Positions 1-64,000 of a DNA stretch of 64,000 nucleotides are shown in pieces (within the stretch, counting starts at the first letter, position 1; each line of letters opens with the position of its first letter). The DNA lies in assembly GCA_030142905.1 (NCBI GenBank), contig JASJOG010000295.1, positions 124,001 to 188,000 of the forward strand, read 5' to 3'. Made by a program: the position numbers and the translations under genes. The stretch comes from Heliopora coerulea. Lineage: Eukaryota; Cnidaria; Anthozoa; Scleralcyonacea; Helioporidae. A model generated the notes under the pieces. The model was given only the letters and a program-made list of their open reading frames with translations, made no database searches and was not told the origin of the DNA.

Positions 1-39
1 TATTTATGAGTTTGAGAAAGTAAGTCAAAAGACACTCAC

Positions 40-3000
40 CAGAATAATCTCCAACAGTTAATCTGTAATAGTCTGATTCATTCGCGATAGCGAATTTGTT
101 GTACACAGCATAACTTGTCTCCTTTTCAAAATCTTCCAAATCAACTCTCAAAACATTTAGACCACTTTTTGACAATCGATGTATTTTGTCCAGACCAAGC
201 CAGAACTCGCCATTGAGATCACCAAATCCTTTTCTGTACTCAGACCATACGCGATAGAAATCTACACTTCCGTCTAATCGTCTTTGAAGGACAGTCCATC
301 CACCTCCTGCGGTAGTCATATCACATCTGACCTGGAATACGCCCTGACTATCGGGGTTGATAGTGTAGATGCCATCTTCTCTTAATCCACAATTGTACCA
401 GTCAGCACAATTTTTGGGACTATAAGAAAGCATTGGGATTTAAAAAAACACATGTACAGTATATCGGGCTTAGAATCAGGTGTTTATCTCTTTGTGTTTT
501 GGGTCACACTTGCAGTGGAAGAACCAGTCTTAATCTTATATTCCCAGACTTTTTATTAATTCATGAGAATTGTCCTACCACAGAAATGTCTTACGTGAGT
601 CGACCCAAAACCCTCGTAAAGAACTAGGCAGGGGACTTGACCTGTCCATTTTAATTTTTTTCCAGTTCAAGAACGTGGAAAAAAAATCGTAGAAGTCCAT
701 GGACTTGAAGAAAGACAATTCAGTTCCTCTCCCAGTATATAAATGAGACCAACATCTGTTCTTAACTCTTTCCTGTTGGCAACTCTACCCTTGACGAGTA
801 AAATAGTCTGGCGTTAGCGAAAATACAGTAATAGAAGTCTTATGTCGCCGGGAAAGAGTTCATTTTCATGGTTTCAATGTATGTAAAATAGTTTAATACC
901 TGATTCGATTCGTTGCGTTTCGAACTTCAAATTACAGTGACCTGCCCCTCAACCGAGACAGATCTCTAAGGACACCTCTCTATGATGGACACTATGTTTG
1001 GTTCCGGCCGTTTATCCATTATTTCACTATGACCAAACTCTCTCTAAGTTGGACACCTCTCTAAGACGGAATCACGTTTGGTCCCGGCCATTTATCCATT
1101 AATTCACCAACACCTCTTTAAAACGGACAACGGACACTATTCAGGTGGAAGAACGTTCAAAATACCTCCCAGGGTGGACAGGTAATAGCTGACTTATAGA
1201 TTCGGATAATGAAACTTGAATATGTCACAATAATGAAAACAAATTGCCATTTATATGCTAATGAACTTTGTAAATATTTATTCTCTGATGATGTCCTAAG
1301 ACGCGACGAAACGTTAAAAATATTAAAACCTTTTTAAAATGCCTGTTATTCGTACTTTTTGCTGGGCTTTACTGTTATTTTAAGAAAACAATATTTCGGT
1401 AGAAATATTGGCGCTACATGAGTGGCCGAAGCTTCATCGTTTTAATCCTCATGGTCGGTTTCAGATTACGTCATCACCCTCTAAGACGGACACTAGTCTA
1501 CGACGAACCTTAAAAGTGGTCCCAAAGCGACCCATTTTAGAGGGAGTTTACTGTACTCTTCTCTGCACTCGATTTACTCTAAGTAAGAGTATCAACGAAG
1601 TTTTAAGATATCTTATGTTTTAGGACACAACAGTACTCCCGCAAATATTGACTGAACCAGTTGTTATATACAGTGGCGCATCAGCAGGGTAGGTGACTTG
1701 CCCACCAGAGAAAATGATTTAGGAAAAGTTGAAAAGAGAGGAAAGAAGGAAGGATGGAAGGAACAGATCGATATGGAAAGAATTAACAAAGGAATTTACG
1801 AAGGTAAGGATTTACCGATTTGGGAAGATAATAAAGAGCTTTAGAACTATTGGAAGGGTTTTAGGAAGAATGGAAGACATCTAGGAAAAAATGAATTTAG
1901 GAAGGAATGTGTTTAGAAATGAAGGAATTTAGGAAGGAAAAATAGATCTTTAGGGAAAGAACAACTTAGGAAAAAATTGATTCAGGAAGGATTAAGGGGT
2001 TTACGGAGGAAGAATTAGGAAGTTATCTGAAAAGGATAGGATTTACATAGAAAAGGAAAAAGCAAGAAAGACACTTAGAAAGGAGATGATTTAGGAAATT
2101 TAACTATGGATTTTAGAAACAAGGAGGATATTTACAAATCTATGAAGCAATTTAGGAAAGTTCGAGGGAGAAATCTAGGCGAAAGGCTTCAGGAAATTTT
2201 TAAAAGGTTGCCCACCTGGGTCTTTAACGCTAGGTACGCCACTGTATGGTTATATAGCATCAAACTTGTACATGAGTTGAGTATTTCCAGCGGGTTTTGA
2301 CAAGCCGTCAACTGCAATCATGTTGTATTGGTCTCGCAGCTGTTAACGGTCCAATTCGTTGACGTCTTAAATCGAGTTGACTGGTTAGGCAGTTATGCCC
2401 ACATTTTCATGGTGGTGAGCCTCCTATTGCAAGACATCAATCTAACAAGATCGTCCAAGAAATCACTTTACTCTTCTCGGTCCGTAACCGACTTTTTGGT
2501 ATTACTCTGACCTTAACGGCAGACGATTTCACTCGTCAAGGGGAGACAACTTAGACCGAAAAGGGTTAAAATAGAGAAACTTCTTCATTCGCCATCTTGT
2601 TGACTTGCGCTTTTCGCAAGCAGGATAAAGGTTAATGTTTTTAGCAAATCAAATCGGACAAGTATTTGAGTTGAACTGGTGCTCAAAAAGAATAATATAA
2701 GTGAAAATCATTGAAACATGAATTTATGGAGTTTCAAAAGCGATAAACACTGCACAGTGATAAACGTTGCACCAATATTGTTTCCTTCGACATAGAGATA
2801 AGAAACAAACTATGCGGGGAAATAGCGTCAAAATTCAGTAACCACTTGATCTTCGCAGTATTTTGGGTACTCATCGTCAATTACTATTTCTTTTTCTTAC
2901 TCAAATTGCGGGATAAATGGTTATTTAAAGACACTAAGATATTGGTACATTTCGTTTCAAAATAAATATTTTGTAGCAGCAACTGAACATTTCATTAAGA

Positions 3001-21652: not shown

Positions 21653-24600
21653 AGTCGGCCGGCCGGGCTGGCAAAAAACGCTTCAAAAAAAGTCCGATGG
21701 CATTTTTTTGTTAGAAGCTGGTAACCACGCTAGAAGTTTAGTTTAGTCTTTAGTATTAACGTTTTGGGGGGTTATCACTGTTGCTTTTGAGTTTTAAACT
21801 AAAAAAATCGATGTTTTCTCGTGATTTTTGCGAACAGCCCATTCGCAGGCTATTCTACTCATCGAATGTCTATCGGGGCTTTCCTCCAAGACTGTTTACC
21901 CTGAGGTGGACGTTGATTGGCTGTTGGGAAATTTCTTAGCCAATCAACAAGCGAGATTGTAAACAACAAAAACTTGTGGATATATTTCATACTGCTGGCC
22001 ATATAATTGGAATGGATACAATTAGAAGGATAGACACAACAATAGCAACAGACATTCTGGATATGCATGAGAAGAATGGTAATGTTTACATTCCCTATGA
22101 ACTTTCACCATATGCACCTGGTCGTGTTATTCTGGCTTCATGTGATAACATTGATGTATTAGAAGCAATCATTGATGGTCAGAACATATTTCACTGCATC
22201 CAGATGATGTTATGGCAGCAGGGACCCAGAAACCTGCGGCCAAGAAAAGATTATCCAAAGATCGGATGAGCACAAACCTTGACTCCTGACATGCTGGCAC
22301 CTCTTCACAAACTAGATTCTGCCATTCTTCCAAAAGAGAAACCAAGTCCAATCTTTCCTGTTGGTGTGGAAATCACCCCAGAGAACTGGTTTGAAGTTAA
22401 TGAGGAATGGAGGGAATCAAAACTAAAAGACATGACATGGCTGCTAGCACAAATGTATGATACAGAGGAAGCCATTGCTGCATGGCCAGCATTCAATGAG
22501 ACAATTAGTTTAAATGACTCCCCTGTTACAACACCTGGAATGCTTCCCATTCTCCAAGCACTGGCAGATGACAACAACACTGTCACAACTGTAATTAATC
22601 GCTTTGTTGAAATAACATCAAAACTTGGACAACCATACACAGTGATTACTATGGATCAGCCACTTTACAGCAGAGCTAAAGAACTTGTCTGGGCAAATCA
22701 AGAGAGGTACCAAGATGTTGTTTTGGTCATGGGGCACCTTCATATTCTGTTTAATTTCCAGAAAGCCATTGGACAACACATGGAGAACACTGGTCTGGTT
22801 GATGTATGGTTAGAAGCAGGGGCATTTGCAGAGGGTAGTACTGATGCTATGATGGAAGATAAAGCATATTACAGAGCTGTTCGAGGGCACATGTTGACAT
22901 ATGAAGCATTGTGGCAAATTTACTGGAATTTTTTTAGTTCATGGTGCAATGTTGGAAAAACTATTAATTTATCAACCAAGGTGATAGGTATTGTTGAGGA
23001 ATTTAGTGCAAGCACACCAGATAATGATGGTATACAGAGATCAGTAAGTGATGTCATGGAAGCACTTGACCAAGGAAATATTGTAGAGATGACTGAGGAG
23101 TTTGATAAGAATTTTGTTGATTGTCCAAACTTTGTTGTGTGGCGAACATATATGAAGATGGTGGAAATTTTGCTAAACTTTATCAGAGCAAATCAAGATG
23201 GTGATTGGCTCCTTCATCTGAATTCATTTGCTGCAATGTTGCCCTGGATGACAATATATGACCATACTAATTATGCTCGATGGGGGCCTATCTATTTGGC
23301 TGAAATGAAAGGTTTGGAAACATCACATCCAGAATTATTTAAAGAATTCATGGCTGGTAATTTTGTTGTAAAGCATAGGAATGGAAGATTTAATCAAGTT
23401 CCAATTGACCAAGCAACTGAGTGGCAAAATAAAGTATGCAAGATATCAAGTGGAATTATTGGAATAACAAGAAATGATACAGCAAGAGACAAGTTTTGCA
23501 TCACCTGGGCTGAGCACTCTTTGGTTTCACATTTGACAACGGTAATGTTGGACTTGGAAGAAAGCAATGATGAAAAGATATCAACTAGAAAAGAAGCTCA
23601 GCCATCTAGAAAGAAGTTTGACAAAGATATAGTTAAACATTTTAAGAAGCAATTCATGCGATTTGATGTCTTCAAGTTGCCTACATCAGGAAAGGGTGCA
23701 CCTGTTATTTCACAAGATGCTGATAACCAAGAAAAGGAGTTAATTAGTCCCAGTCTTCAACTAACTTCTATAGCCACAAATGATGTTGCTACAAGTGAAA
23801 TTCAGCAAGACATGCTTTCTGAAGAGAATCTGGGAAGACAATTGGTATCTAAACATGTGACAAGCTGGTTTATTAAGAAAGAAGTCCCATTCTTTAATTC
23901 ACTTAAGAAGAACAACAGTAAGACATTCAAGACTTTGTACCAAACAACAGTTCTAGTAAAACAAAATGAACAAAATGTGATAAAAGCAGACAGAAAGTTA
24001 CTGCAGCATCTTCTCACAGCTTCAATGGCAGGCCGACAAATCAAGATGGATGAAATTCTACAACATGAACTAGCCAGTTTGCCTTTATCCTTAGCAAAAA
24101 TTAATGGAGACATGAATACTACAACCAAGGCAGATATGACTGACATATTGATGGGTGATATTGAAGTTCTACATAGTATCCCATATCAGGAAGATTCAGG
24201 TAAGACATGTATAATAATTGATGGACATGCACTCATTCAAGCTCTGGGTAAACCACCGAATTGCAAAACCTTCCAGGATTATGGAGGTGTGTTCTTGAGA
24301 GCTGTGGCAAAAGAATTGGATGAAAGCATTAAACGAATTGATGTACTATTTGATACCTATATTGAAACCTCGATGAAAGCTGCTGCCCGAGCAAAACGAA
24401 ACACCAAGAAAAGGCCAATACTTAGGGTTATTGATAGAGAGGATTTGCCTCTTCCACAAGTCTGGGGAAACTTTATCGCCTTGCCAGAAAACAAAGCTGA
24501 CTTGGCCAATTTCTTGAGTGAATATCTCATGCAACGTGGTCATGAGCTCTTAGCAAATTGTGAGCTGGTCACAAGTGGTGGATATAAAGAAACAACAAAG

Positions 24601-25865
24601 GCACGTTCAACATCTTTGGGAAATCTAACACACCTTAAATGTAACCATGAGGAAGCAGATACACGTATTATTTTGCATGCATGTGATGCAATTTTAAAGG
24701 ATTTTAATAAACGCCTTGTACATTGTAGGGACACAGATGTTTTGTTACTGCTAGTTCATTTTCTAGGTACAATTGAAGATGTTCAAACATGGATGATTGC
24801 AGAAACTTCAAGACAAAGAAAATGTTATCCTGTTCATACAATTACTGAGTGTCTACCTGCACCTATTACTAATAATAAAATAGGGTTTCATGCTTTGACA
24901 GGATGTGATACAACCTCCTCTTTCACTGGTTTTGGAAAGTGAAAATGTTGGAAAGTCTTTGAGGAATTCCCTCATTTAATTAATGGTCTTGGCAGAGATG
25001 GTACAAGTAATGAAATTGAGGAGTTTGTCGGTTGACTTTACTCTGCCCAAGATCCAAAAGCTGGAGTAAATAAATGTAGAATTGACCTATTTGAAAAGGG
25101 AAGCAAAGACCTCAAAAAACTTCCCCCGACAGAAGATGCATTGAACTTGCACATTGCCCGTGCTAACCAACAAGCTAAAGTTTGGCTCCAGGCAAATTTA
25201 AGTTGGCAAACAGTAGATTTACCATTTGAAACAATTGGTTGGGAGGTATATGAACAAAGATTAAAGATTATGTGGACAACAAAGCCATCTATACCGTCAT
25301 CATGTGTAAACTTAATATCTTGTGGATGTACAAAGAAGTGCAATACGGGTGCTTGTAAATGCTACAAAACTAGTCAGCGATGCACTCCTATATGCTCGTG
25401 TAATGCACAGGGATGCAAGAATCCTTACACTTCAAGGTAGACATAGACATTTAAAAAAATACGTGTTTTTGGGTCATAACATACCTATAAAAAGGATTTT
25501 CATGCTTCGTTATGTGGCGTTACGTTCACACATGTCTTTGTTTACAATGTCATGTCCACATTAGTATGAACTTCCGCTTTGCTTGACCAATATGAGATCA
25601 CGGCTTATTAGCAAGGGCCAATAAAAAATTGCTTATTTGTTGCATAGCAACAAAAAGTTGTAAAAATGTAGATTTCGCACCTGCCGATGCAGGCTATATT
25701 ATTGTCTAAAAAACACTAAAATTTTGGTACAAAAAATACGATTTTTGCATGGTAACCCCCCAAACCTTTAAAACTAAGCATATTTGAGTTCATCTATTGT
25801 GGTTACCAGCTTCTAACAAAAAAATGCCATTGGACGAAATATTTTGCCAGCTCGGCTGGCTGACT
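21653..25865 (+). mobile_element. Complete 4.2-kb DNA transposon with TIRs, FEN1/XPG-like nuclease
   Basis: The left end (21653-21728) and right end (25799-25865) are inverted repeats: AGTCGGCCGGCCGGGCTGGC versus, reverse-complemented, AGTCAGCCAGCCGAGCTGGC. Both then share a GGCATTTTTTTGTTAGAAG and CTGGTAACCAC block. Weaker subterminal matching (TTTGGGGGGTTA-CA) extends the pairing inwards to about 200 bp. The element is flanked by ATATT on both sides (21648-21652 and 25866-25870). If the TIR is taken one base longer, the duplication becomes TAT. The only long frame inside is the nuclease-like protein. An XPG-type nuclease domain has been described in the Academ superfamily, which is my best guess, but I could not compare sequences. 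Confidence 0.8.
21940..25440 (+). pseudogene. FEN1/XPG-like nuclease with C-terminal CXC module, three in-frame stops
   Basis: One frame spans about 21940-25440, interrupted only by TGA at 22267, 24940 and 25033; the longest open part (22279-24942) is 887 residues. Counting from 22279, a FEN1/XPG active-site series is visible. CIIIDGHALI has D648, IDVLFDTYI has D692 (like VFDG of FEN1), and NHEEADTRI has E791/E792/D794. RDTDVLLLL has D818/D820, and HALTGCDTTSSFTGFGK has D877, like the GCDY...GIGPK helix region. After 24942 the frame continues to a Cys-rich stretch (25316-25437, CGCTKKCNTGACKCYKTSQ), resembling a tesmin/TSO1 CXC DNA-binding motif. The protein fills the transposon and has no DDE triad that I can see. 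Acting as the transposase is inference. Confidence 0.7.
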
Positions 25866-50047: not shown

Positions 50048-50201
50048 AGTATCTGTTCTTATCAGCTTAATATCTGGTATGCCAGGCAACGCCTGGCTCA
50101 TATATTAAACTGATTTTTGGACCTCGGCCATGGGATTGAAGCTTGCTTCACCCTGGCCACGGGTTGTCTCGGTCTTGCACTAAATCCGAGTACGGCCCCT
50201 T
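50048..50201 (+). ncRNA. U2 snRNA gene, 5'-truncated copy at the array edge
   Basis: Contains U2 from nt 38 (perhaps 35) to the 3' end: the ATATATTAAACTGATTTTTGG Sm-site region and stem-loops III-IV. The first 34-37 bases are missing; instead unrelated sequence ending CCCCTAAG precedes. It cannot give a working U2. Confidence 0.85.
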
Positions 50202-50215
50202 CCCCAAAGGGGAAG
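50199..50215 (+). promoter_or_regulatory. Hairpin at the U2 3' end (repeated in each unit)
   Basis: CTTCCCCAAAGGGGAAG forms a perfect 7-bp stem with an AAA loop exactly at the expected U2 3' end (also at 60031-60047 and the equivalent sites). A role in 3'-end formation is plausible but inferred. A metazoan 3' box-like AAAACGGTCAGA lies about 50 bases further on. Confidence 0.4.
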
Positions 50216-50590: not shown

Positions 50591-50679
50591 ATACTTACCT
50601 GACGCGAGAGGTACTTTGATCATGAAGGAAGTCCTCTCAGGATGAGGCCCTCTCATTGCACTTCGATTGGGTTGACTCC

Positions 50680-50711
<32 letters not shown>

Positions 50712-50754
50712 TATAATTTCTGTTAGTGGGGACCTGCGTTCGCGCTCGTCCCCT
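50591..50754 (+). ncRNA. U1 snRNA gene, copy 1
   Basis: Starts with ATACTTACCTG, the 5'-splice-site-pairing end of U1. Stem-loop I contains GATCATGAAG, the U1-70K loop. Stem-loop II has ATTGCACTTC, close to the U1A site. Then come CCCCAAATGTGGGTAACTCG, the Sm site ATAATTTCTG and the closing stem-loop GGGGACCTGCGTTCGCGCTC with CCCC. Length about 164, as in other animals. It recognises 5' splice sites in the spliceosome and appears intact. It lies about 160 bases before the 5S gene. Confidence 0.95.
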
Positions 50755-50917
50755 CCCTCCCTCCCTATCAAAGCGTAAAGCTGAAGTGAAAACGGATTAG
50801 TGAGTGAAACACGATGTAGGTGATGGTGTAGTTCGGTGCGTTCCTAACAATATCTTCGTCCAGTTGGCCGCCACACACAGCGCTAGCTATAAAAATGCTA
50901 TAGTCCTTACGCCTCCT

Positions 50918-51037
50918 GTCTACGACCATACCACCGGGAAAGCACCGGTTCTCGTCAGATCACCGAAGTTAAGCCCGGTCGGGCGGAGTTAGTACTTGGA
51001 TGGGTGACCGCCTGGGAATACCCCGTGTTGTAGTCTT
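50918..51037 (+). rRNA. 5S rRNA gene, copy 1
   Basis: About 120 bases starting GTCTACGACCATACCAC and ending CCCCGTGTTGTAGTCTT, with the internal pol III control region (GAAGTTAAGCCCGGTCGGGC...GGATGGGTGACCGCC). A TATAAAAA box lies about 30 bases upstream and T-runs (TTTGTTT) follow. The U2 gene begins 108 bases downstream on the same strand. Confidence 0.95.
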
Positions 51038-51203
51038 TGTTTGCCGAACAATAAGGTACGCTACAGCAACGTCCGCTGACCAAAACGAACCACAACATGT
51101 TTGTCGGCGTTTTTCGTTCTTAAACTGATTTTTTTCCTTTTCGCTATCGCTTCTCGGCCTCTTGGCTAAGATCAAGTGTAGTATCTGTTCTTATCAGCTT
51201 AAT

Positions 51204-52950
51204 TCAGTGCTGCCTTGATCTTGGTCATTAGGTCACACTCTTGTTTACTTCAAAGTGATCGTTTGAGTATTTTTTATCGCAAGAGTGTATTTAAATTGTC
51301 TTGAGGGATTTATTAGACCTATTATTCAGCGTCGAACTTTCTACTGACCGTTTATAATTTTGAGAGAAGCCGCCATCGATCGCAAGTTATACTCTTCTAT
51401 TTCGTTGATATTTTGGTTTACTGCCTTTATTATGGTTATTCATTCCGCAAATCGAGTATCTCCGTCTCCTGGTCTTCTACCTACTCCGTCTCTTCAGCCA
51501 AATGGTGTTAATTCCGATATTCTCGTTGGCCGTTCTTATTATCCATTGCCGTATCCATTGGTTACTATCCTTGAAGGAAGTAAACTGTCCGAGCTAATTT
51601 CATGGGATATTTCTGTTTCTACTAAAATTTTGAAATTAAAATTGGATTGGTCTACTTCATCTAAAGATTACGACTCTTCATCCTTCTCTGAAATGCTACC
51701 TAACAACGTTATTCAAGCCATTAAGATCTATGAGATTTCCCAACCGTCATGGTCAATTTCTGCCTCCAAAAATAAACTGTCTACTAAGATAGAATGGCAA
51801 ATTTCTCACTCAAAGTCTAAACAATCCTCGCTCCAACCTCGAATTCCGAATGTGATCTTATCTTCGACCAAATCTTCGAATTATATCACTCCAACGCCTA
51901 AAATATTTAAAAAATCAACTGATTCGGGCTTTGGCAGTTCAAATTCAAATTCTGGTCTCCATAGCGATTCTTTTAATTGGCGCCGTACGGTCAATTTACC
52001 TTCAAATCCTAATTTCGACTCTCCTAGCCATACAACTTATCATCATGACATTTATGTTGCACCGAATTGTAAAGAAGTCAAAGCGTCAACTAAATTGTCA
52101 AAGAATTCTTCGTCAAATGTTTCTAAATCTTCTAATTCGTCTTCGCCTGTTTCTGCCCGAGAGGTCAAATCTGTTAATGTTAAACCAGAATCATCACAAC
52201 CTCAAGGGAAAACCCCATTTCGCAAAGAAATCCAAAACTCCGACATTGATCAATCTTCCTCCGATGAAAAGACTACTAACCTTGCTCCTTCAACATCTTC
52301 TACTAATCTGCCTTCGATTAAAGCTGATAATCTAGCACCAAACGTCACCTTATCATCACCTTCAAAATCGTTCGAAATTCCTGTTCCACCTAAAGGTTTC
52401 CCGAAATCGTTCCTCGATACTCCAAATCCTTTACCGATTGTTGGCGATGGTTTCCTAGATCCGAAAATTCCAGCTTGCTTTATGAATATCCAAGGTTCTT
52501 GTCGCCTTTGTAATTGCATCGTTTCGTCTCATCTTATTGATTTGCATCTCTTACAATGTTCTGGTTTAAACAGACAACCACTTGAATCCTTCGTGAAAGT
52601 TGTAATGAAAGAATCGTCCATCAAGAAGAAACAAGTGGTTGAAGCTTCTTATCTTTACTCGAAATTTGAACTAAATGAAGCAACTGTACCCAATAAATAC
52701 TTCAAAACCTTAGATAAGTACAGATCTTTTACATCAAAACTTGAAAACCTTACAAAGTTACTCACGGACATGGCCTATAAGAAGCTGAACATTTCATATA
52801 AATTAGAAAACTTTAATATTCTTAAATATAAAGCATAACCCTGATACTATATTTTTTAGTATCACCATTGTTGTAATTTATCTTTACTTTGTTGAATAAC
52901 TTAGGATAGAATACCAGTCCCATCATTTGTAAACATTTCAAGTAATAAAA
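51204..52950 (+). mobile_element. U2-specific insertion, 1747 bp, no reverse transcriptase (copy 1)
   Basis: Begins TCAGTGCTGCCTTGATCTTG and ends with AAGTAATAAAA, flanked by the 21-bp duplicate of U2 nt 38-58 (51183-51203 and 52951-52971). It has a 5' leader, one ORF on the U2-sense strand and a 112-base 3' region. The A-rich 3' end and long duplication suggest insertion by target-primed reverse transcription. It may be an ORF1-only, non-autonomous partner of a U2-targeting retrotransposon. Bases 11-24 of the element are antisense to U2 nt 18-31. Confidence 0.88.
51432..52838 (+). CDS. Orphan protein of the U2 insertion (copy 1)
   Basis: 468 residues from the first ATG (the frame is open upstream from 51348 with a TTG at 51360). 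It is not recognised as a known family. Near the N-terminus two segments resemble each other (SWDISVSTKILKLKLDW and SWSISASKNKLSTKIEW), suggesting a duplicated Trp-framed module. The middle is Ser/Pro/Asn-rich and probably disordered. Near the C-terminus is a C2HC-type zinc-finger candidate (C357-X2-C360-X11-H372-X3-C376), then a Lys-rich helical tail. No RT, endonuclease or transposase motif is present. A nucleic-acid-binding, ORF1-like role is inferred from the finger and the context. The frame is intact in all three copies. Confidence 0.75.
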   Translation: MVIHSANRVSPSPGLLPTPSLQPNGVNSDILVGRSYYPLPYPLVTILEGSKLSELISWDISVSTKILKLKLDWSTSSKDYDSSSFSEMLPNNVIQAIKIYEISQPSWSISASKNKLSTKIEWQISHSKSKQSSLQPRIPNVILSSTKSSNYITPTPKIFKKSTDSGFGSSNSNSGLHSDSFNWRRTVNLPSNPNFDSPSHTTYHHDIYVAPNCKEVKASTKLSKNSSSNVSKSSNSSSPVSAREVKSVNVKPESSQPQGKTPFRKEIQNSDIDQSSSDEKTTNLAPSTSSTNLPSIKADNLAPNVTLSSPSKSFEIPVPPKGFPKSFLDTPNPLPIVGDGFLDPKIPACFMNIQGSCRLCNCIVSSHLIDLHLLQCSGLNRQPLESFVKVVMKESSIKKKQVVEASYLYSKFELNEATVPNKYFKTLDKYRSFTSKLENLTKLLTDMAYKKLNISYKLENFNILKYKA

Positions 52951-53490
52951 ATCTGTTCTTATCAGCTTAATATCTGGTATGCCAGGCAACGCCTGGCTCA
53001 TATATTAAACTGATTTTTGGACCTCGGCCATGGGATTGAAGCTTGCTTCACCCTGGCCACGGGTTGTCTCGGTCTTGCACTAAATCCGAGTACGGCCCCT
53101 TCCCCAAAGGGGAAGAACAACAATAACAATTGAAATGATATGAAAGGAAAACGGTCAGAGCAGCAAGTAATGTGTTTTGTTTGTGCGATTACATTTCAGG
53201 TCAGCTTTGAATGTGTCCCTGGAGACGAAGCGCCGTGTCTCTGGAGAGCATGATGCGGACAAGGTTGGCTGCTTGGCGATTGCAAGGAACGACAAGATGA
53301 CGAACCATCGCCCGCCCGCCCGCCCGCCCGCCCACAGTTCCAAGGAGTAGCGAAGGAAATGCTAGAGATAAAACATGGTAGGTAATCATTTCAGTCATTC
53401 CTAGCTAAGTTGATGCACCAAGCAACGTTCCTACCACATGCGACAGTGTGAAATGAACCAATCAAAACGTTGCCTTTCGCCGGAAAACGC

Positions 53491-53579
53491 ATACTTACCT
53501 GACGCGAGAGGTACTTTGATCATGAAGGAAGTCCTCTCAGGATGAGGCCCTCTCATTGCACTTCGATTGGGTTGACTCC

Positions 53580-54103: not shown

Positions 54104-55850
54104 TCAGTGCTGCCTTGATCTTGGTCATTAGGTCACACTCTTGTTTACTTCAAAGTGATCGTTTGAGTATTTTTTATCGCAAGAGTGTATTTAAATTGTC
54201 TTGAGGGATTTATTAGACCTATTATTCAGCGTCGAACTTTCTACTGACCGTTTATAATTTTGAGAGAAGCCGCCATCGATCGCAAGTTATACTCTTCTAT
54301 TTCGTTGATATTTTGGTTTACTGCCTTTATTATGGTTATTCATTCCGCAAATCGAGTATCTCCGTCTCCTGGTCTTCTACCTACTCCGTCTCTTCAGCCA
54401 AATGGTGTTAATTCCGATATTCTCGTTGGCCGTTCTTATTATCCATTGCCGTATCCATTGGTTACTATCCTTGAAGGAAGTAAACTGTCCGAGCTAATTT
54501 CATGGGATATTTCTGTTTCTACTAAAATTTTGAAATTAAAATTGGATTGGTCTACTTCATCTAAAGATTACGACTCTTCATCCTTCTCTGAAATGCTACC
54601 TAACAACGTTATTCAAGCCATTAAGATCTATGAGATTTCCCAACCGTCATGGTCAATTTCTGCCTCCAAAAATAAACTGTCTACTAAGATAGAATGGCAA
54701 ATTTCTCACTCAAAGTCTAAACAATCCTCGCTCCAACCTCGAATTCCGAATGTGATCTTATCTTCGACCAAATCTTCGAATTATATCACTCCAACGCCTA
54801 AAATATTTAAAAAATCAACTGATTCGGGCTTTGGCAGTTCAAATTCAAATTCTGGTCTCCATAGCGATTCTTTTAATTGGCGCCGTACGGTCAATTTACC
54901 TTCAAATCCTAATTTCGACTCTCCTAGCCATACAACTTATCATCATGACATTTATGTTGCACCGAATTGTAAAGAAGTCAAAGCGTCAACTAAATTGTCA
55001 AAGAATTCTTCGTCAAATGTTTCTAAATCTTCTAATTCGTCTTCGCCTGTTTCTGCCCGAGAGGTCAAATCTGTTAATGTTAAACCAGAATCATCACAAC
55101 CTCAAGGGAAAACCCCATTTCGCAAAGAAATCCAAAACTCCGACATTGATCAATCTTCCTCCGATGAAAAGACTACTAACCTTGCTCCTTCAACATCTTC
55201 TACTAATCTGCCTTCGATTAAAGCTGATAATCTAGCACCAAACGTCACCTTATCATCACCTTCAAAATCGTTCGAAATTCCTGTTCCACCTAAAGGTTTC
55301 CCGAAATCGTTCCTCGATACTCCAAATCCTTTACCGATTGTTGGCGATGGTTTCCTAGATCCGAAAATTCCAGCTTGCTTTATGAATATCCAAGGTTCTT
55401 GTCGCCTTTGTAATTGCATCGTTTCGTCTCATCTTATTGATTTGCATCTCTTACAATGTTCTGGTTTAAACAGACAACCACTTGAATCCTTCGTGAAAGT
55501 TGTAATGAAAGAATCGTCCATCAAGAAGAAACAAGTGGTTGAAGCTTCTTATCTTTACTCGAAATTTGAACTAAATGAAGCAACTGTACCCAATAAATAC
55601 TTCAAAACCTTAGATAAGTACAGATCTTTTACATCAAAACTTGAAAACCTTACAAAGTTACTCACGGACATGGCCTATAAGAAGCTGAACATTTCATATA
55701 AATTAGAAAACTTTAATATTCTTAAATATAAAGCATAACCCTGATACTATATTTTTTAGTATCACCATTGTTGTAATTTATCTTTACTTTGTTGAATAAC
55801 TTAGGATAGAATACCAGTCCCATCATTTGTAAACATTTCAAGTAATAAAA
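54104..55850 (+). mobile_element. U2-specific insertion, copy 2
   Basis: Identical in length and ends to copy 1. Identity of both flank and insert implies that the interrupted unit was multiplied as a whole, not that the element inserted again. Confidence 0.88.
54332..55738 (+). CDS. Orphan protein of the U2 insertion (copy 2)
   Basis: Same 468-residue frame as in copy 1, with no amino-acid difference. Confidence 0.75.
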   Translation: MVIHSANRVSPSPGLLPTPSLQPNGVNSDILVGRSYYPLPYPLVTILEGSKLSELISWDISVSTKILKLKLDWSTSSKDYDSSSFSEMLPNNVIQAIKIYEISQPSWSISASKNKLSTKIEWQISHSKSKQSSLQPRIPNVILSSTKSSNYITPTPKIFKKSTDSGFGSSNSNSGLHSDSFNWRRTVNLPSNPNFDSPSHTTYHHDIYVAPNCKEVKASTKLSKNSSSNVSKSSNSSSPVSAREVKSVNVKPESSQPQGKTPFRKEIQNSDIDQSSSDEKTTNLAPSTSSTNLPSIKADNLAPNVTLSSPSKSFEIPVPPKGFPKSFLDTPNPLPIVGDGFLDPKIPACFMNIQGSCRLCNCIVSSHLIDLHLLQCSGLNRQPLESFVKVVMKESSIKKKQVVEASYLYSKFELNEATVPNKYFKTLDKYRSFTSKLENLTKLLTDMAYKKLNISYKLENFNILKYKA

Positions 55851-57003: not shown

Positions 57004-58750
57004 TCAGTGCTGCCTTGATCTTGGTCATTAGGTCACACTCTTGTTTACTTCAAAGTGATCGTTTGAGTATTTTTTATCGCAAGAGTGTATTTAAATTGTC
57101 TTGAGGGATTTATTAGACCTATTATTCAGCGTCGAACTTTCTACTGACCGTTTATAATTTTGAGAGAAGCCGCCATCGATCGCAAGTTATACTCTTCTAT
57201 TTCGTTGATATTTTGGTTTACTGCCTTTATTATGGTTATTCATTCCGCAAATCGAGTATCTCCGTCTCCTGGTCTTCTACCTACTCCGTCTCTTCAGCCA
57301 AATGGTGTTAATTCCGATATTCTCGTTGGCCGTTCTTATTATCCATTGCCGTATCCATTGGTTACTATCCTTGAAGGAAGTAAACTGTCCGAGCTAATTT
57401 CATGGGATATTTCTGTTTCTACTAAAATTTTGAAATTAAAATTGGATTGGTCTACTTCATCTAAAGATTACGACTCTTCATCCTTCTCTGAAATGCTACC
57501 TAACAACGTTATTCAAGCCATTAAGATCTATGAGATTTCCCAACCGTCATGGTCAATTTCTGCCTCCAAAAATAAACTGTCTACTAAGATAGAATGGCAA
57601 ATTTCTCACTCAAAGTCTAAACAATCCTCGCTCCAACCTCGAATTCCGAATGTGATCTTATCTTCGACCAAATCTTCGAATTATATCACTCCAACGCCTA
57701 AAATATTTAAAAAATCAACTGATTCGGGCTTTGGCAGTTCAAATTCAAATTCTGGTCTCCATAGCGATTCTTTTAATTGGCGCCGTACGGTCAATTTACC
57801 TTCAAATCCTAATTTCGACTCTCCTAGCCATACAACTTATCATCATGACATTTATGTTGCACCGAATTGTAAAGAAGTCAAAGCGTCAACTAAATTGTCA
57901 AAGAATTCTTCGTCAAATGTTTCTAAATCTTCTAATTCGTCTTCGCCTGTTTCTGCCCGAGAGGTCAAATCTGTTAATGTTAAACCAGAATCATCACAAC
58001 CTCAAGGGAAAACCCCATTTCGCAAAGAAATCCAAAACTCCGACATTGATCAATCTTCCTCCGATGAAAAGACTACTAACCTTGCTCCTTCAACATCTTC
58101 TACTAATCTGCCTTCGATTAAAGCTGATAATCTAGCACCAAACGTCACCTTATCATCACCTTCAAAATCGTTCGAAATTCCTGTTCCACCTAAAGGTTTC
58201 CCGAAATCGTTCCTCGATACTCCAAATCCTTTACCGATTGTTGGCGATGGTTTCCTAGATCCGAAAATTCCAGCTTGCTTTATGAATATCCAAGGTTCTT
58301 GTCGCCTTTGTAATTGCATCGTTTCGTCTCATCTTATTGATTTGCATCTCTTACAATGTTCTGGTTTAAACAGACAACCACTTGAATCCTTCGTGAAAGT
58401 TGTAATGAAAGAATCGTCCATCAAGAAGAAACAAGTGGTTGAAGCTTCTTATCTTTACTCGAAATTTGAACTAAATGAAGCAACTGTACCCAATAAATAC
58501 TTCAAAACCTTAGATAAGTACAGATCTTTTACATCAAAACTTGAAAACCTTACAAAGTTACTCACGGACATGGCCTATAAGAAGCTGAACATTTCATATA
58601 AATTAGAAAACTTTAATATTCTTAAATATAAAGCATAACCCTGATACTATATTTTTTAGTATCACCATTGTTGTAATTTATCTTTACTTTGTTGAATAAC
58701 TTAGGATAGAATACCAGTCCCATCATTTGTAAACATTTCAAGTAATAAAA
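57004..58750 (+). mobile_element. U2-specific insertion, copy 3
   Basis: Same ends, length and ORF as copies 1 and 2. It is the last interrupted unit before the intact one. Confidence 0.88.
57232..58638 (+). CDS. Orphan protein of the U2 insertion (copy 3)
   Basis: Same 468-residue frame as in copies 1 and 2. Confidence 0.75.
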   Translation: MVIHSANRVSPSPGLLPTPSLQPNGVNSDILVGRSYYPLPYPLVTILEGSKLSELISWDISVSTKILKLKLDWSTSSKDYDSSSFSEMLPNNVIQAIKIYEISQPSWSISASKNKLSTKIEWQISHSKSKQSSLQPRIPNVILSSTKSSNYITPTPKIFKKSTDSGFGSSNSNSGLHSDSFNWRRTVNLPSNPNFDSPSHTTYHHDIYVAPNCKEVKASTKLSKNSSSNVSKSSNSSSPVSAREVKSVNVKPESSQPQGKTPFRKEIQNSDIDQSSSDEKTTNLAPSTSSTNLPSIKADNLAPNVTLSSPSKSFEIPVPPKGFPKSFLDTPNPLPIVGDGFLDPKIPACFMNIQGSCRLCNCIVSSHLIDLHLLQCSGLNRQPLESFVKVVMKESSIKKKQVVEASYLYSKFELNEATVPNKYFKTLDKYRSFTSKLENLTKLLTDMAYKKLNISYKLENFNILKYKA

Positions 58751-59845: not shown

Positions 59846-60033
59846 ATCGCTTCTCGGCCTCTTGGCTAAGATCAAGTGTAGTATCTGTTCTTATCAGCTT
59901 AATATCTGGTATGCCAGGCAACGCCTGGCTCATATATTAAACTGATTTTTGGACCTCGGCCATGGGATTGAAGCTTGCTTCACCCTGGCCACGGGTTGTC
60001 TCGGTCTTGCACTAAATCCGAGTACGGCCCCTT
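59846..60033 (+). ncRNA. U2 snRNA gene, intact
   Basis: About 188 bases with all U2 landmarks in order. These are the 5' ATCGCTTCTCGG, the GTAGTA branch-site-pairing sequence at nt 33-38, stem-loop II (GGTATGCCAGGCAACGCCTG), the Sm site in ACTGATTTTTGG, stem-loop III (CCATGGG...CCCTGG) and stem-loop IV (CTCGGTCTTGCAC...CCGAG). It is the only uninterrupted U2 in the window and shows the empty target site of both insertions. The 3' end is estimated from the human length. Confidence 0.95.
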
Positions 60034-60422
60034 CCCCAAAGGGGAAGAACAACAATAACAATTGAAATGATATGAAAGGAAAACGGTCAGAGCAGCAAGT
60101 AATGTGTTTTGTTTGTGCGATTACATTTCAGGTCAGCTTTGAATGTGTCCCTGGAGACGAAGCGCCGTGTCTCTGGAGAGCATGATGCGGACAAGGTTGG
60201 CTGCTTGGCGATTGCAAGGAACGACAAGATGACGAACCATCGCCCGCCCGCCCGCCCGCCCGCCCACAGTTCCAAGGAGTAGCGAAGGAAATGCTAGAGA
60301 TAAAACATGGTAGGTAATCATTTCAGTCATTCCTAGCTAAGTTGATGCACCAAGCAACGTTCCTACCACATGCGACAGTGTGAAATGAACCAATCAAAAC
60401 GTTGCCTTTCGCCGGAAAACGC

Positions 60423-60977: not shown

Positions 60978-61001
60978 ATCGCTTCTCGGCCTCTTGGCTA
61001 A
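60978..61001 (+). ncRNA. U2 snRNA gene 5' stub, interrupted at nt 24
   Basis: Only U2 nt 1-24 (up to TTGGCTAA) remain before unrelated sequence begins with TCGAGTTCTAGC. In the intact gene the next base is G. The rest of this U2, if present, lies beyond the window after the retrotransposon. Confidence 0.9.
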
Positions 61002-61374
61002 TCGAGTTCTAGCGATCGCAGTAAAGAGCCTTGTGTTCCAAGCTGTTTTTGAGGTGCTTTTGTGGACGAATGCTTGGGGAGTCCTCCCCATAACACTCAA
61101 GTATCCTTTGGTTTCGTTCTTCGAGATTTCCACGAGTATTGGCTACGAGATCTTCGCCTCCGTTCCTGCAGTTGGTTCGACATTCTACCGGGTTTGGCAA
61201 CGTGTTCTTCGCCTACCTCCACTGCAGTTGGCCTCTCTGGTTTACCTGGCAGACCTTCTGGCTGTTGACCTTCTTACCACTTGGTCCAGCGGACGATCGC
61301 ATACCGGACTCCGTGTGTTCACCTTTTGGGGATTTAGTGTGTGCAACCCAAAAAGGTCAGTGTGATTTATTACC

Positions 61375-62955
61375 ATGTCCATACCGTATGCGAACCGCTC
61401 AGCTGTTGCTGTGATCCCAACACTGGCAACAAGAGAGCTGCCTAGGATAAATTTGGACGAAGTCTTAGAAGACTTCAACGGACAGTACGAGCCATTGGGC
61501 AAGTACTTTTACTGTGTGCAGTTCATTTCTTCGAAAAAACTGCGCATAACATTTAACACAGCCGCGCTGATGGAGGATTGCCTCAGCGCCGGACTTTCGC
61601 TCCGAGGGTTTCCTCTCGAACCTCAACCCATTTCATGCAAAAAATGGGTCTCAGTACAACGTTTGGCCATTGGTATCCCTATGGAGGCCGCAACCCGTAT
61701 CCTTGGAAAGTACGGGAAAGTTTATTCGGCTAAACACGAGACCAAGAGAGGCATATACACGGGCACCCTTTCTGTATTGATGGAGGTGCTTAAAAACATC
61801 CCGTCAACCCTGCGTATTCGAGGGCATACCTGCCTTATCTTTTATCGCGGACAAGTACGGACTTGTTTCCGGTGCCAGTCGCCGGACCATACCACCCGCG
61901 ACTGCCCCTACATGCAGTCTCGCACTTCCGCCACTGCCGACGACCCTCCCCCCACTTACGATGGGGAAACGCAGGACCAACCGTCCCCGTCAGCGGAGAC
62001 TGAAACGCCGTCCGACCACCACACCCCAGAGGCATCCGCCCCTGGTGACACGGCTTCTCCGCCGCCCGTCCACACGACCGACATGGATGGCACCCACCCC
62101 GACGCCTCCCAACAGACTCCCATCCCTATGGAAGGGACCAATATGGAAGGCCTCGAACACGAAGGGGCAACCAGCCCCCTCACCCAGGATCGAACTGATC
62201 CCGACTCCGGCTCTGACCGGGGTAACGAAGTTAGAACTGCGGAGACTGATGCTACCGCCCATTCTCCCAGTCACGATGCTGACGCTTCTGCTACGCCCAG
62301 CACCGCGCTCACCGGCCTCGCCAACGACGCCGCCGGTGAAACAAAAGACACGGGTACAGCCACCCCAAACACCACCGCCAGTAATACCACCAGTTCCTCC
62401 TCGGCCGCCGAGAAGAACGCCTCAGACGGCAGCGAACTACTGGCCCCGCCGGCCTCTTACGCCAGCGCTGTGGATCCTCGGGTAACCACCGTGACCACTA
62501 CCAGCGGTTCCCAACCTAGTGTGCTGTCCTCATACCCCCAGGAGTTCCCGCCCATCGCGAGCCCATCGGTGCAGGATACCGACACGGATGGCTTTAAAGT
62601 CCCACGCCGTCAGCGCCGACCACCCAGCCGTAACTCCAACCGGATGCGCTCTCGGTCGCGCTCCGCGTCGAGCACCGACTCGACCTCCTCGTCCGGACCA
62701 CCAACCCGGAAACGTACCCAACCGTCCCTGGTTGGTACAGGCGTATCTTCACGCCGCTCCACCAGAGACATCGATATTACCTTGGGCCAATTTGGAGCCC
62801 TCTACGACCTAGTCCCGGGCACTGGGGAAGTCCCTGACATTCGCCTGTCCGCCTCCGGAAACATCCTTCCCGATTCGCAACCCGAAGGGAATCTTGGACC
62901 TCGGCCTACCTCCGAGCTGGACTTAACCTTGGAGTCTCTCCTGAACTTGAAATGA
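61375..62955 (+). CDS. ORF1 (gag-like) protein of the U2-inserted LINE
   Basis: 526 residues from an ATG in good context (ACCATGT). Residues about 40-155 look like an RRM-type RNA-binding region (GKYFYCVQF and ILGKYGKVYSAKHETKRG). A retroviral-type zinc knuckle follows (C164-X2-C167-X4-H172-X4-C177, CFRCQSPDHTTRDC). The rest is Pro/Thr/Ser/Asp-rich and probably disordered, with an Arg/Ser stretch (RMRSRSRSASSTDS) near residue 425. This is the architecture of ORF1 proteins of L1/Tx1-type LINEs, which coat the element RNA. The stop codon overlaps the ORF2 start (ATGA at 62952-62955), which suggests reinitiation or stop-coupled translation of ORF2. Identity as ORF1 is well supported; the exact family is not. 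Confidence 0.85.
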   Translation: MSIPYANRSAVAVIPTLATRELPRINLDEVLEDFNGQYEPLGKYFYCVQFISSKKLRITFNTAALMEDCLSAGLSLRGFPLEPQPISCKKWVSVQRLAIGIPMEAATRILGKYGKVYSAKHETKRGIYTGTLSVLMEVLKNIPSTLRIRGHTCLIFYRGQVRTCFRCQSPDHTTRDCPYMQSRTSATADDPPPTYDGETQDQPSPSAETETPSDHHTPEASAPGDTASPPPVHTTDMDGTHPDASQQTPIPMEGTNMEGLEHEGATSPLTQDRTDPDSGSDRGNEVRTAETDATAHSPSHDADASATPSTALTGLANDAAGETKDTGTATPNTTASNTTSSSSAAEKNASDGSELLAPPASYASAVDPRVTTVTTTSGSQPSVLSSYPQEFPPIASPSVQDTDTDGFKVPRRQRRPPSRNSNRMRSRSRSASSTDSTSSSGPPTRKRTQPSLVGTGVSSRRSTRDIDITLGQFGALYDLVPGTGEVPDIRLSASGNILPDSQPEGNLGPRPTSELDLTLESLLNLK

Positions 62956-64000
62956 ACTGTAAAATATTGACCTTAAATATCCAGGGACTTCGATCCTTGG
63001 AGAACAGACAAACTTTAACATCATGGCTAAATTGTTTTAAGCCATCCATAGTTTGCCTTCAAGAGACGCACTCCATCTCGGAGGAGGAATTTTCAGACTG
63101 GTTTACTAACCCCATCATAACTAATACTAACTATAAATGTATATCCTCGCCCGGTACGGCACGTAGTCGCGGTGTTGCCATCCTTTACCGTCCCGAGGCC
63201 TTGTCGGTGGTTAGTAGTTGGAAAGACGACTCTGGGAGACTGGTTATTGCGGAATTTTCCCGTAATAATTTAAACTTCCAGGTCGCAAGTCTTTACGGCC
63301 CTAACAACAAAAAAGACGGTAGTCTCTTTTTCGAATCCTTTTACCAAGCCCTAGACCCAGACCTCCCAGTGTTACTGTGTGGGGACTTTAACACAGTGGT
63401 AGATCCGTGCTCGGATCGCCTCGGATGTAATCCGAGGTCCCCCTGGGCTTACAACTGGTCACCTTCTCTGCGTGATTTAACCACCTCCTTCGAACTCTGC
63501 GATGTATGGCGCGCTATGCATCCCGGGGTCGAGGAGTTCACGTGGAGGAGGCCCGGTGGCGGCCAGGCCTCCCGGATCGACATGATCTGGTTACCACAGC
63601 GATACCTGGGTCTCGTCTCGTCAGTGGGGATCTTTCCCTTCTTTCGATCAGATCACTCCTATGTGTATCTGGACATCAACCTTCCATCTGGGGTTGATAG
63701 GGGCAAAGGATTATGGAAGTTCAACACCTCTCACCTCAAGGATGAGGCCTTCTGCAACGAAATCGCAGGATTTTGGGTGGATTGGCGTCGTGAGCGGAAT
63801 CGTTTTTCTTCTCTCTCATCATGGTGGGATGCCGGCAAAGTCCGGATTAAAAGGTTGATCCGTCGTTTCTCGCGGGAGAAATCTCAACAGCAGCGACGCA
63901 AAATCAAATCGTTGAACGCTACCGTCGAACATGTCCAAAGGCGAATTGATAACGGTGAGCAGCTCCCCGGTCTGCTGGAGGAAGTGAGAGCAGAGCTAGC
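62952..64000 (+). CDS. ORF2 of the U2-inserted LINE, APE endonuclease domain (partial)
   Basis: Open to the window end (349 codons visible). The apurinic-like endonuclease is complete. It has LNIQGL (N9), CLQETH (E38), SLYGPN near residue 115, LLCGDFNT (D145, N147), SRIDMIWL (D210) and RSDHS (D234, H235); all catalytic positions are conserved. GLWKFNTSHLKD follows, the block that links EN to RT in L1/Tx1 elements. The RT itself is beyond the edge. The endonuclease would nick the target and so determine insertion in U2. It starts at the ATG overlapping the ORF1 stop. No frame break seen. Confidence 0.88.
   Translation, partial: MNCKILTLNIQGLRSLENRQTLTSWLNCFKPSIVCLQETHSISEEEFSDWFTNPIITNTNYKCISSPGTARSRGVAILYRPEALSVVSSWKDDSGRLVIAEFSRNNLNFQVASLYGPNNKKDGSLFFESFYQALDPDLPVLLCGDFNTVVDPCSDRLGCNPRSPWAYNWSPSLRDLTTSFELCDVWRAMHPGVEEFTWRRPGGGQASRIDMIWLPQRYLGLVSSVGIFPFFRSDHSYVYLDINLPSGVDRGKGLWKFNTSHLKDEAFCNEIAGFWVDWRRERNRFSSLSSWWDAGKVRIKRLIRRFSREKSQQQRRKIKSLNATVEHVQRRIDNGEQLPGLLEEVRAEL

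Follow-up and report, generated by a model that had tools for sequence, protein, structure and literature searches.

A protein-coding element without reverse transcriptase at a single U2 snRNA nucleotide in Heliopora coerulea, probably copied in trans by a LINE

We analysed a 64,000-nucleotide stretch of the Heliopora coerulea genome (the window; contig JASJOG010000295.1 of GenBank assembly GCA_030142905.1, corresponding to C218:124001-188000 in our contig naming; assembly size 429.8 Mb, 769 contigs), in which a 1,747-bp element carrying one intact open reading frame (ORF) interrupts the gene for U2 small nuclear RNA (snRNA). Its relatives, referred to here as class A, occupy the same U2 nucleotide in other contigs, encode a protein of their own and share short terminal sequences with a reverse transcriptase (RT)-bearing element found at the same site. 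We consider it likely that class A elements are protein-coding, non-autonomous non-long terminal repeat (non-LTR) retroelements that are copied in trans, by target-primed reverse transcription, by a long interspersed nuclear element (LINE) with a restriction-like endonuclease (RLE), while their own protein escorts their RNA.

The element and its family in U2

From window position 50591 onward U1, 5S and U2 genes are arranged in a tandem array; linked tandem U1, U2 and 5S genes are also described for the coral Acropora pruinosa in passages of PMC8167085. A 2,900-bp U1-5S-U2 repeat containing the insertion (50591..53490; this and all further element, U2 and LINE features given for the window lie on the forward strand) is repeated exactly at 53491 and 56391. 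A first-pass annotation of the window had described one copy of the element. Three identical copies are present at 2,900-bp spacing (51204..52950, 54104..55850 and 57004..58750), in repeats alike base for base, and represent one insertion that was amplified. The following repeat measures 1,132 bp and holds an intact U2 gene (59846..60037; Rfam RF00004, 181.8 bits), so that the empty site is known, and the next one is interrupted from 61002. The annotated 1,747-bp ORF-bearing insert in U2, with its empty site at 59846, was thereby confirmed.

Copy 1 is preceded by U2 nt 1-38 (51146..51183), and the sequence ATCTGTTCTTATCAGCTTAAT occurs at 51183-51203 and again at 52951-52971. This exact 21-base duplication, previously assigned to nt 38-58, is real but best read as 20 bp comprising nt 39-58 (5' copy 51184..51203, 3' copy 52952..52971), with A38 counted as tail. 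The 3' boundary of copy 1, whose tail ends AATAAAA, is ambiguous by one A. Since in all 21 further class A inserts that were read the U2 flank begins at nt 39, in several of them after a non-A tail (e.g. ...AAAC joined to TCTG), the A at 52951 is attributed to the element tail. The arrangement is not due to chance because the empty site of the exact 21-base duplication is known and more diverged elements have the same junction. Known RNAs detected by an Rfam scan of the element are limited to U2 at the two junctions.

A DNA search of the genome with the window element (query 1-1789, of which the first and last 21 bases are U2) yielded 45 matches, with 69-100% identity among the 15 spanning the whole query. 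We read 22 class A inserts, which were chosen by their U2 flanks in fetched stretches and do not constitute a full survey. All their 3' junctions map to U2 nt 38/39, with a 20-nt duplication (one further matching base in three), as expected from the site specificity proposed in the first-pass annotation. The inserts are 1,743-1,925 bp long; an ORF of 466-529 amino acids is intact in 20 of the 22, being broken in A635_52 and reduced to 400 residues in A635_15. A protein census of the genome, which is independent of U2, gave 39 matches that group as 27 near-full loci and three fragments. By our own grouping the 27 loci form about 14 lineages, and the frame is unbroken in 24 of them. Twenty-four of the near-full loci are inserts already read (the three of the window counted singly), all at the same U2 nucleotide, and the remaining three (two in C735, one in C613) aligned through both U2 ends in the DNA search.

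The class A protein

The ORF of the window element comprises 468 codons (51432..52838). It is intact, and a Pfam search revealed no RT or endonuclease match, in agreement with the earlier annotation. Comparison of 13 class A ORFs by the Nei-Gojobori method gave 75 between-lineage pairs, with protein identities of 28-63%. The ratio of nonsynonymous to synonymous divergence (dN/dS) is 0.21-0.55 in the 69 pairs with unsaturated dS, the other six being saturated; of 12 comparisons that involve the window ORF, 10 have unsaturated dS and give ratios of 0.25-0.47. Judged by these ratios the class A ORF is under purifying selection. Without it, a frame of 1.4 kb would not have remained intact at such divergence. 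Three further pairs of near-identical elements gave 0.16, 0.24 and 2.14.

The protein consists of a conserved N-terminal part, a variable Ser-rich linker and a C-terminal part with the pattern C-x2-C-x11-H-x3-C. The latter (residues 357-376, 52500..52559) is a putative zinc finger, zinc binding being guessed from the pattern. The region upstream of the ATG (51363..51431) contains an AGAGAAGYC motif and an in-frame, stop-free hydrophobic stretch. The motif is present upstream of the ATG in 22/22 class A inserts, and the frame is open from motif to ATG, with the hydrophobic stretch, in all 13 intact-ORF sequences checked; the annotated ATG may not be the true start.

Related proteins are found in public contigs (ena, lgn). 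None of these 16 has a precomputed Pfam domain. In 10 cases the longest contig measures 1,752-2,037 bases, roughly the length of a single element. We also searched with a profile for relatives carrying an RT; with the 8,000 best candidates scored, this returned 17 rows, namely 15 of the 16 known proteins and two new short proteins without a Pfam domain. Among the 22 class A inserts, read from chosen stretches searched by U2 flanks, there are no short derivatives lacking the ORF (smallest insert 1,743 bp), which fits a cis-acting protein.

Two class A copies in C446 (154533-156457 and 144683-146605) have a C-terminal part or 3' end unlike those of their nearest relatives and look recombinant.

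Movement, the presumed helper and alternative explanations

We then compared near-identical elements together with their flanks. The element A_262 of C218 is 99.5-99.7% identical to A446_151 and A446_171 of C446, whereas identity in the 900-nt flanks is 87%, even though conserved genes lie within them, and each side has 100-114 gapped positions. Likewise, A102_268 and A446_107 are 99.2% identical as elements and 87.2% in the 3' flank; their 5' flanks are not comparable. Conversely, A_262 and A_281 are only 76% identical and yet have identical 5' flanks. Flank values were dropped for A102_315 (5', 74.0%) and B_265 (3', 72.6%), which represent other insertions, and for the 3' side of A_281 (84.9%), which has no U1 at the point where elsewhere the array continues; the pair of the window element and A635_52 was also left unused. 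In addition, chains of insertions at one site, each spaced by the 20-nt target, are present in C635, C218 and C102, and each insertion rebuilds the target.

Because near-identical elements sit in repeats whose flanks are only about 87% identical, class A elements probably move, and insertion into this one U2 nucleotide seems to have occurred on more than one occasion. Spread without any transposition, through amplification of repeats and gene conversion between U2 arrays alone, is a very unlikely account of these data. Amplification does occur, as seen in the three exact 2,900-bp repeats of the window and in five equal-length copies in C591 (two compared: 100%), and conversion tracts ending inside the U2 gene are the alternative that is left. 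It would have to accommodate near-identical elements in arrays with 87%-identical flanks, on both sides for one pair, as well as unlike elements in repeats with an identical 5' flank and the chains with 20-nt spacers.

A candidate for the source of RT lies in the same contig. The 4,792-bp element at C218:266878-271669 has the same junctions, the 20-bp duplication and a single intact ORF of 1,333 amino acids. Its protein contains an RT according to Pfam (RVT_1, 1.3e-32), and its best solved relatives are R2 proteins (PDB, 6e-54). N-terminal hits to C2H2-type zinc fingers all remain under the Pfam cut-offs (best 4.1e-4), and by eye we recognise what we take to be CCHC and RPD...D motifs in the C-terminal part, where Pfam gives no hit. 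With a 3' flank starting at U2 nt 39, as in Utopia, this element is a probable RLE LINE of the R2/Utopia type.

The similarity between this LINE and the satellites maps to the two ends. In copy 1 of the window the 5' terminal 33 nt (51204..51236) are 88% identical to the LINE, and the 3' terminal stretch (52891..52950), which contains CCCATCA, is akin to it with a shuffle z of 6.4 over 60 nt. The genome search with the window element recovered the LINE as two terminal matches of 93% (query 1-54) and 85% (1737-1789), each including 21 U2 bases. By BLAST the LINE matches the 5' ends of most inserts, mostly over 31-33 nt at 85-91%, and the 3' ends of A446_154, the A591_11 group, A635_15, A635_52 and A102_315 over 33-93 nt at 76-85%; BLAST alone finds no 3' match to the window copy, and no other BLAST match with E below 1 to class A DNA beyond the ends. 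Against 300 shuffles, the 5' end scores z of at least 5.6 in 12/13 lineages and the 3' end at least 4.6 in 10/13. GC content is 36-39% in the satellites and 37% in the LINE. RNAalifold indicates a weak structure at the 5' end (-5.0); two other regions have none. The 3' end of the copy at C446:154533-156457 is the nearest to that of the LINE (z 11.1).

As these ends are common to the satellites and an RT element at the same site, the LINE at C218:266878-271669 is the probable helper of class A in trans. The first-pass annotation had proposed a search for several U2 insertions, or for a longer RT-bearing relative sharing the 3' end, and the outcome is positive: further U2 insertions have the same junctions, and a longer RT element at the same site shares the ends. 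Its description of the element as 'ORF1-only' did not hold up: no similarity between the satellite and helper proteins is detectable (hhalign probability 0.4%) and the helper has one ORF, for which reason the class A protein is not, by homology, a LINE ORF1.

In the mechanism that we favour, class A RNA would probably be started at the host U2 promoter. An RLE LINE of the R2/Utopia type would perform target-primed reverse transcription in trans, via the shared short ends. Given the junctions found, the bottom strand would be cut between U2 nt 38 and 39 and the top strand after nt 58, resulting in the 20-bp duplication. The satellite's own protein would most likely coat or escort its own RNA and deliver it to the helper RT, and selection would hold the ORF open as each copy needs its own product, as proposed for HeT-A.

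The shared ends, with little else in common, would also be expected if class A were a short internally deleted element (SIDE), i.e. a derivative of the RLE LINE in which the LINE ends have been joined and the ORF is a remnant of the LINE coding region. R2 SIDEs are a precedent for this (PMC3414825). We hold this to be improbable, as the satellite and LINE proteins align with an hhalign probability of 0.4%, no DNA of the middle is shared with E below 1, and the diverse ORFs of 466-529 amino acids are under selection. Alternatively, the satellite protein could be an accessory factor that the RLE LINE needs in trans, so that the two form a split two-component system and not a parasite and its host; mobilisation in trans is compatible with this. 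The single ORF of the helper is in line with such a role, as is a weakly similar protein (hhalign E 3.5e-4, 37%) in a second group of inserts, class C, which share their site with a second RLE-LINE lineage. R2, however, works with one protein. Utopia generally encodes one protein as well, according to passages of PMC4640811, and an accessory role is rather unlikely, if somewhat less so than the SIDE origin. A DNA transposon was rejected because of the constant 20-bp duplication and because no inverted pair joins the ends among the 25 of 33 listed, and a short interspersed nuclear element (SINE) because the element is coding and has no small-RNA-derived head (Rfam: only U2, at the junctions). 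The LINE starting at 61002 was rejected as a partner of class A, as it inserts at another site and its DNA has no match to any class A element.

Several observations weigh against trans mobilisation of class A as proposed here. The 3' match to the helper is weak or absent in A591_43 (z 3.2), A102_268 (z 1.6) and A591_20 (z -0.4), and A102_268 has no 5' match either. A single unbroken copy of the helper lineage was seen, relatives in C635 (95%) and C613 (78%) containing stops. RT relatives in the genome gave 43 matches among 35 candidates scored of 5,327 (29 in C218, C613, C635, C446 and C102, 12 in C90, one each in C144 and C408), and include a second RLE LINE lineage with an unbroken 1,431-amino-acid ORF in C102 and C446; its C102 copy is 5,650 bp long with a 20-nt duplication, and its 3' end matches 0/13 class A lineages (best z 1.6). 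For the satellite protein itself, Pfam hits stay under the cut-off (best E 0.059), NCBIfam gives nothing for the three class A members tried, and the best E in a PDB search is 0.1. The dN/dS of 2.14 comes from the pair A_262 and A446_151, with very few changes (proportions of synonymous and nonsynonymous differences, pS 0.00 and pN 0.01). The junctions of flank-chosen inserts cannot alone exclude copies elsewhere, for which the protein census serves as the check, and three fragments of that census (a weak one in C263, two in C446) may lie outside U2. Finally, no transcription or retrotransposition was observed; we infer movement and mobilisation in trans.

Other insertions in U2 and comparison with known systems

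Class C was encountered when seeking other inserts at the class A site. At the four loci (L031-L034), which represent two distinct sequences, the insert measures 2,168-2,219 bp, is flanked by the duplication seen for class A and has an intact ORF of 591-612 amino acids. Past the first 90 codons dN/dS is 0.34. The N-terminal part of class A aligns colinearly with the class C protein over 153 columns (hhalign E 3.5e-4, probability 37%), which is at most suggestive of a relationship between the two. Over their final 37-59 nt, L032 and the decayed X635_54 resemble a decayed RLE LINE, X635_56, at 81% and 73% (E 0.003 and 0.001). L031 has no 3' hit to X635_56, and at the 5' end class C and the RLE LINE look unrelated. 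In L031 and L032 the first 90 ORF codons are far better conserved than the remainder, even at silent sites (pS 0.13 vs 0.57), and may therefore be an RNA leader, not protein.

We tentatively consider, with rather less than even confidence, that the class A and class C proteins form one ancient, self-standing 'retro-satellite' family whose members are only parasites of U2-specific RLE LINEs, each lineage having taken the 3' end of a particular helper, and that the U2 arrays hold three parallel helper-plus-satellite pairs. If so, the satellite protein lineage would be independent of its helper, like virophages of giant viruses.

Another set of insertions is found near U2 nt 24. At 61002..64000 the window contains the beginning of a LINE with an apurinic/apyrimidinic endonuclease (APE), which starts at U2 nt 24 after U2 nt 1-24 (60978..61001). 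It is 6,025 bp long, extending to about C218:191011, with ORF1 at 61375-62955 and ORF2 from 62952. A second copy at C218:195525-201549 is 99.97% identical. Ten short inserts at U2 nt 21-25 (class B; 1,639-1,834 bp) all encode an ORF of 456-486 amino acids. The class B protein contains an RRM just above and a zinc knuckle just below the Pfam cut-off and aligns with ORF1 of the APE-type LINE, and the 3' ends of the two share up to 173 nt at 77%. Thus an ORF1-only parasite of U2, as the first-pass annotation had suggested, does exist in the same arrays, at about nt 24 and with another LINE; class A is not such an element. The ends of class B and of the APE-type LINE as cut take in U2 nt 24-38, and therefore indicate little or no target duplication. 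In class B dN/dS is 0.15-0.30 in 7/15 pairs, the other eight being saturated. Class B gave 91 genome matches, with 91 of 268 candidates scored. The nine at the bottom of the ranking (32-38% identity) resemble ORF1 of complete LINEs, and in eight of these the frame has 572-743 codons. Such half-LINEs appear to outnumber the LINEs, and 15 related proteins are found in public contigs. Class B-like ORFs were also noticed in three contigs beyond those read, at C457:664882-666295, C769:174798-175862 and C345:124214-125098.

Together these insertions interrupt much of the U2 in the genome. Exact counts are 232 for U2 nt 39-63 (reversed control 0), 187 for nt 34-63 and 47 for nt 17-63. By subtraction, 45 right halves have other sequence before nt 39 and 140 around nt 24, although point mutations within U2 would reduce the later exact counts too. 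Only 47/232 right halves, about one in five, are uninterrupted. Interruption of about 80% raises the question of how the genome keeps enough U2 for splicing.

Among known elements, Utopia resembles the presumed helper, not the satellite. Passages of PMC4640811 give a U2 3' flank from nt 39 in Phytophthora and 20-bp duplications in reptile Utopia, as for the helper, together with the domain order zinc finger, RT, zinc finger, RLE, several families in one array and tandem insertions in Nasonia. The words 'nonautonomous' and 'non-autonomous' occur 0 times in that paper (PMC4640811). Keno is an APE-type U2 LINE like the 6,025-bp element at 61002. Its 3' flank is said in part of PMC4640811 to equal that of Utopia, whereas the element at 61002 inserts at about nt 24.

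Class A has no RT and one conserved ORF, which corresponds to HeT-A and HAL1; homology to an ORF1/Gag was not detected, and is found for class B. HeT-A, which has a LINE Gag and extends telomeres, is not known to have an RT of its own, and HAL1 is not known to be site-specific in the sense of class A. As set out in parts of PMC6114517, HeT-A is directed to a single type of location, and its RNA is bound, by cis preference, by the Gag that it encodes. According to the same source it outnumbers TART and TAHRE, the RTs of these two being 'likely critical' for it. Unlike HeT-A, class A encodes no known Gag, has a helper without ORF1, and targets one U2 nucleotide with a fixed duplication. Class A would work like HeT-A but fails the homology to a LINE ORF1/Gag that defines it. 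HAL1, described in passages of PMC5753468 as a non-autonomous LINE derivative encoding ORF1p only, is a good match for class B. Unlike HAL1, class A does not encode the ORF1 of its helper. R2 and R2/R1 SIDEs are RT-less and use LINE ends at the exact site of a ribosomal DNA LINE; according to the abstract of PMC3414825 they consist of joined LINE ends, and no protein of their own is mentioned there. Class A similarly has ends in common with an autonomous element at the same site (5' 12/13, 3' 10/13), but its body is neither absent nor detectably LINE-derived. A literature search of titles and abstract starts, with many journals outside its coverage, returned papers on Utopia, Keno, SIDEs and HAL1 but none describing an RT-less yet protein-coding satellite of either an RLE LINE or a U2 element.

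Trans mobilisation of class A would show that single-ORF RLE LINEs, of the R2 group now under study for the targeted insertion of genes, are open to exploitation in trans by elements with an unrelated protein of their own, and that such a satellite protein persists across deep divergence (protein identity 28-63%). The class A ends are natural RNA ends which a U2-site RT may accept. A dozen versions are at hand here, making the hypothesis directly testable in a purified reaction.

Two further features of the window were noted. At 50048-50205 a U2 right half is joined at about nt 36-38 to unrelated non-U2 sequence and may be the array edge or another insertion, and an 887-codon ORF is present at 22279-24942.

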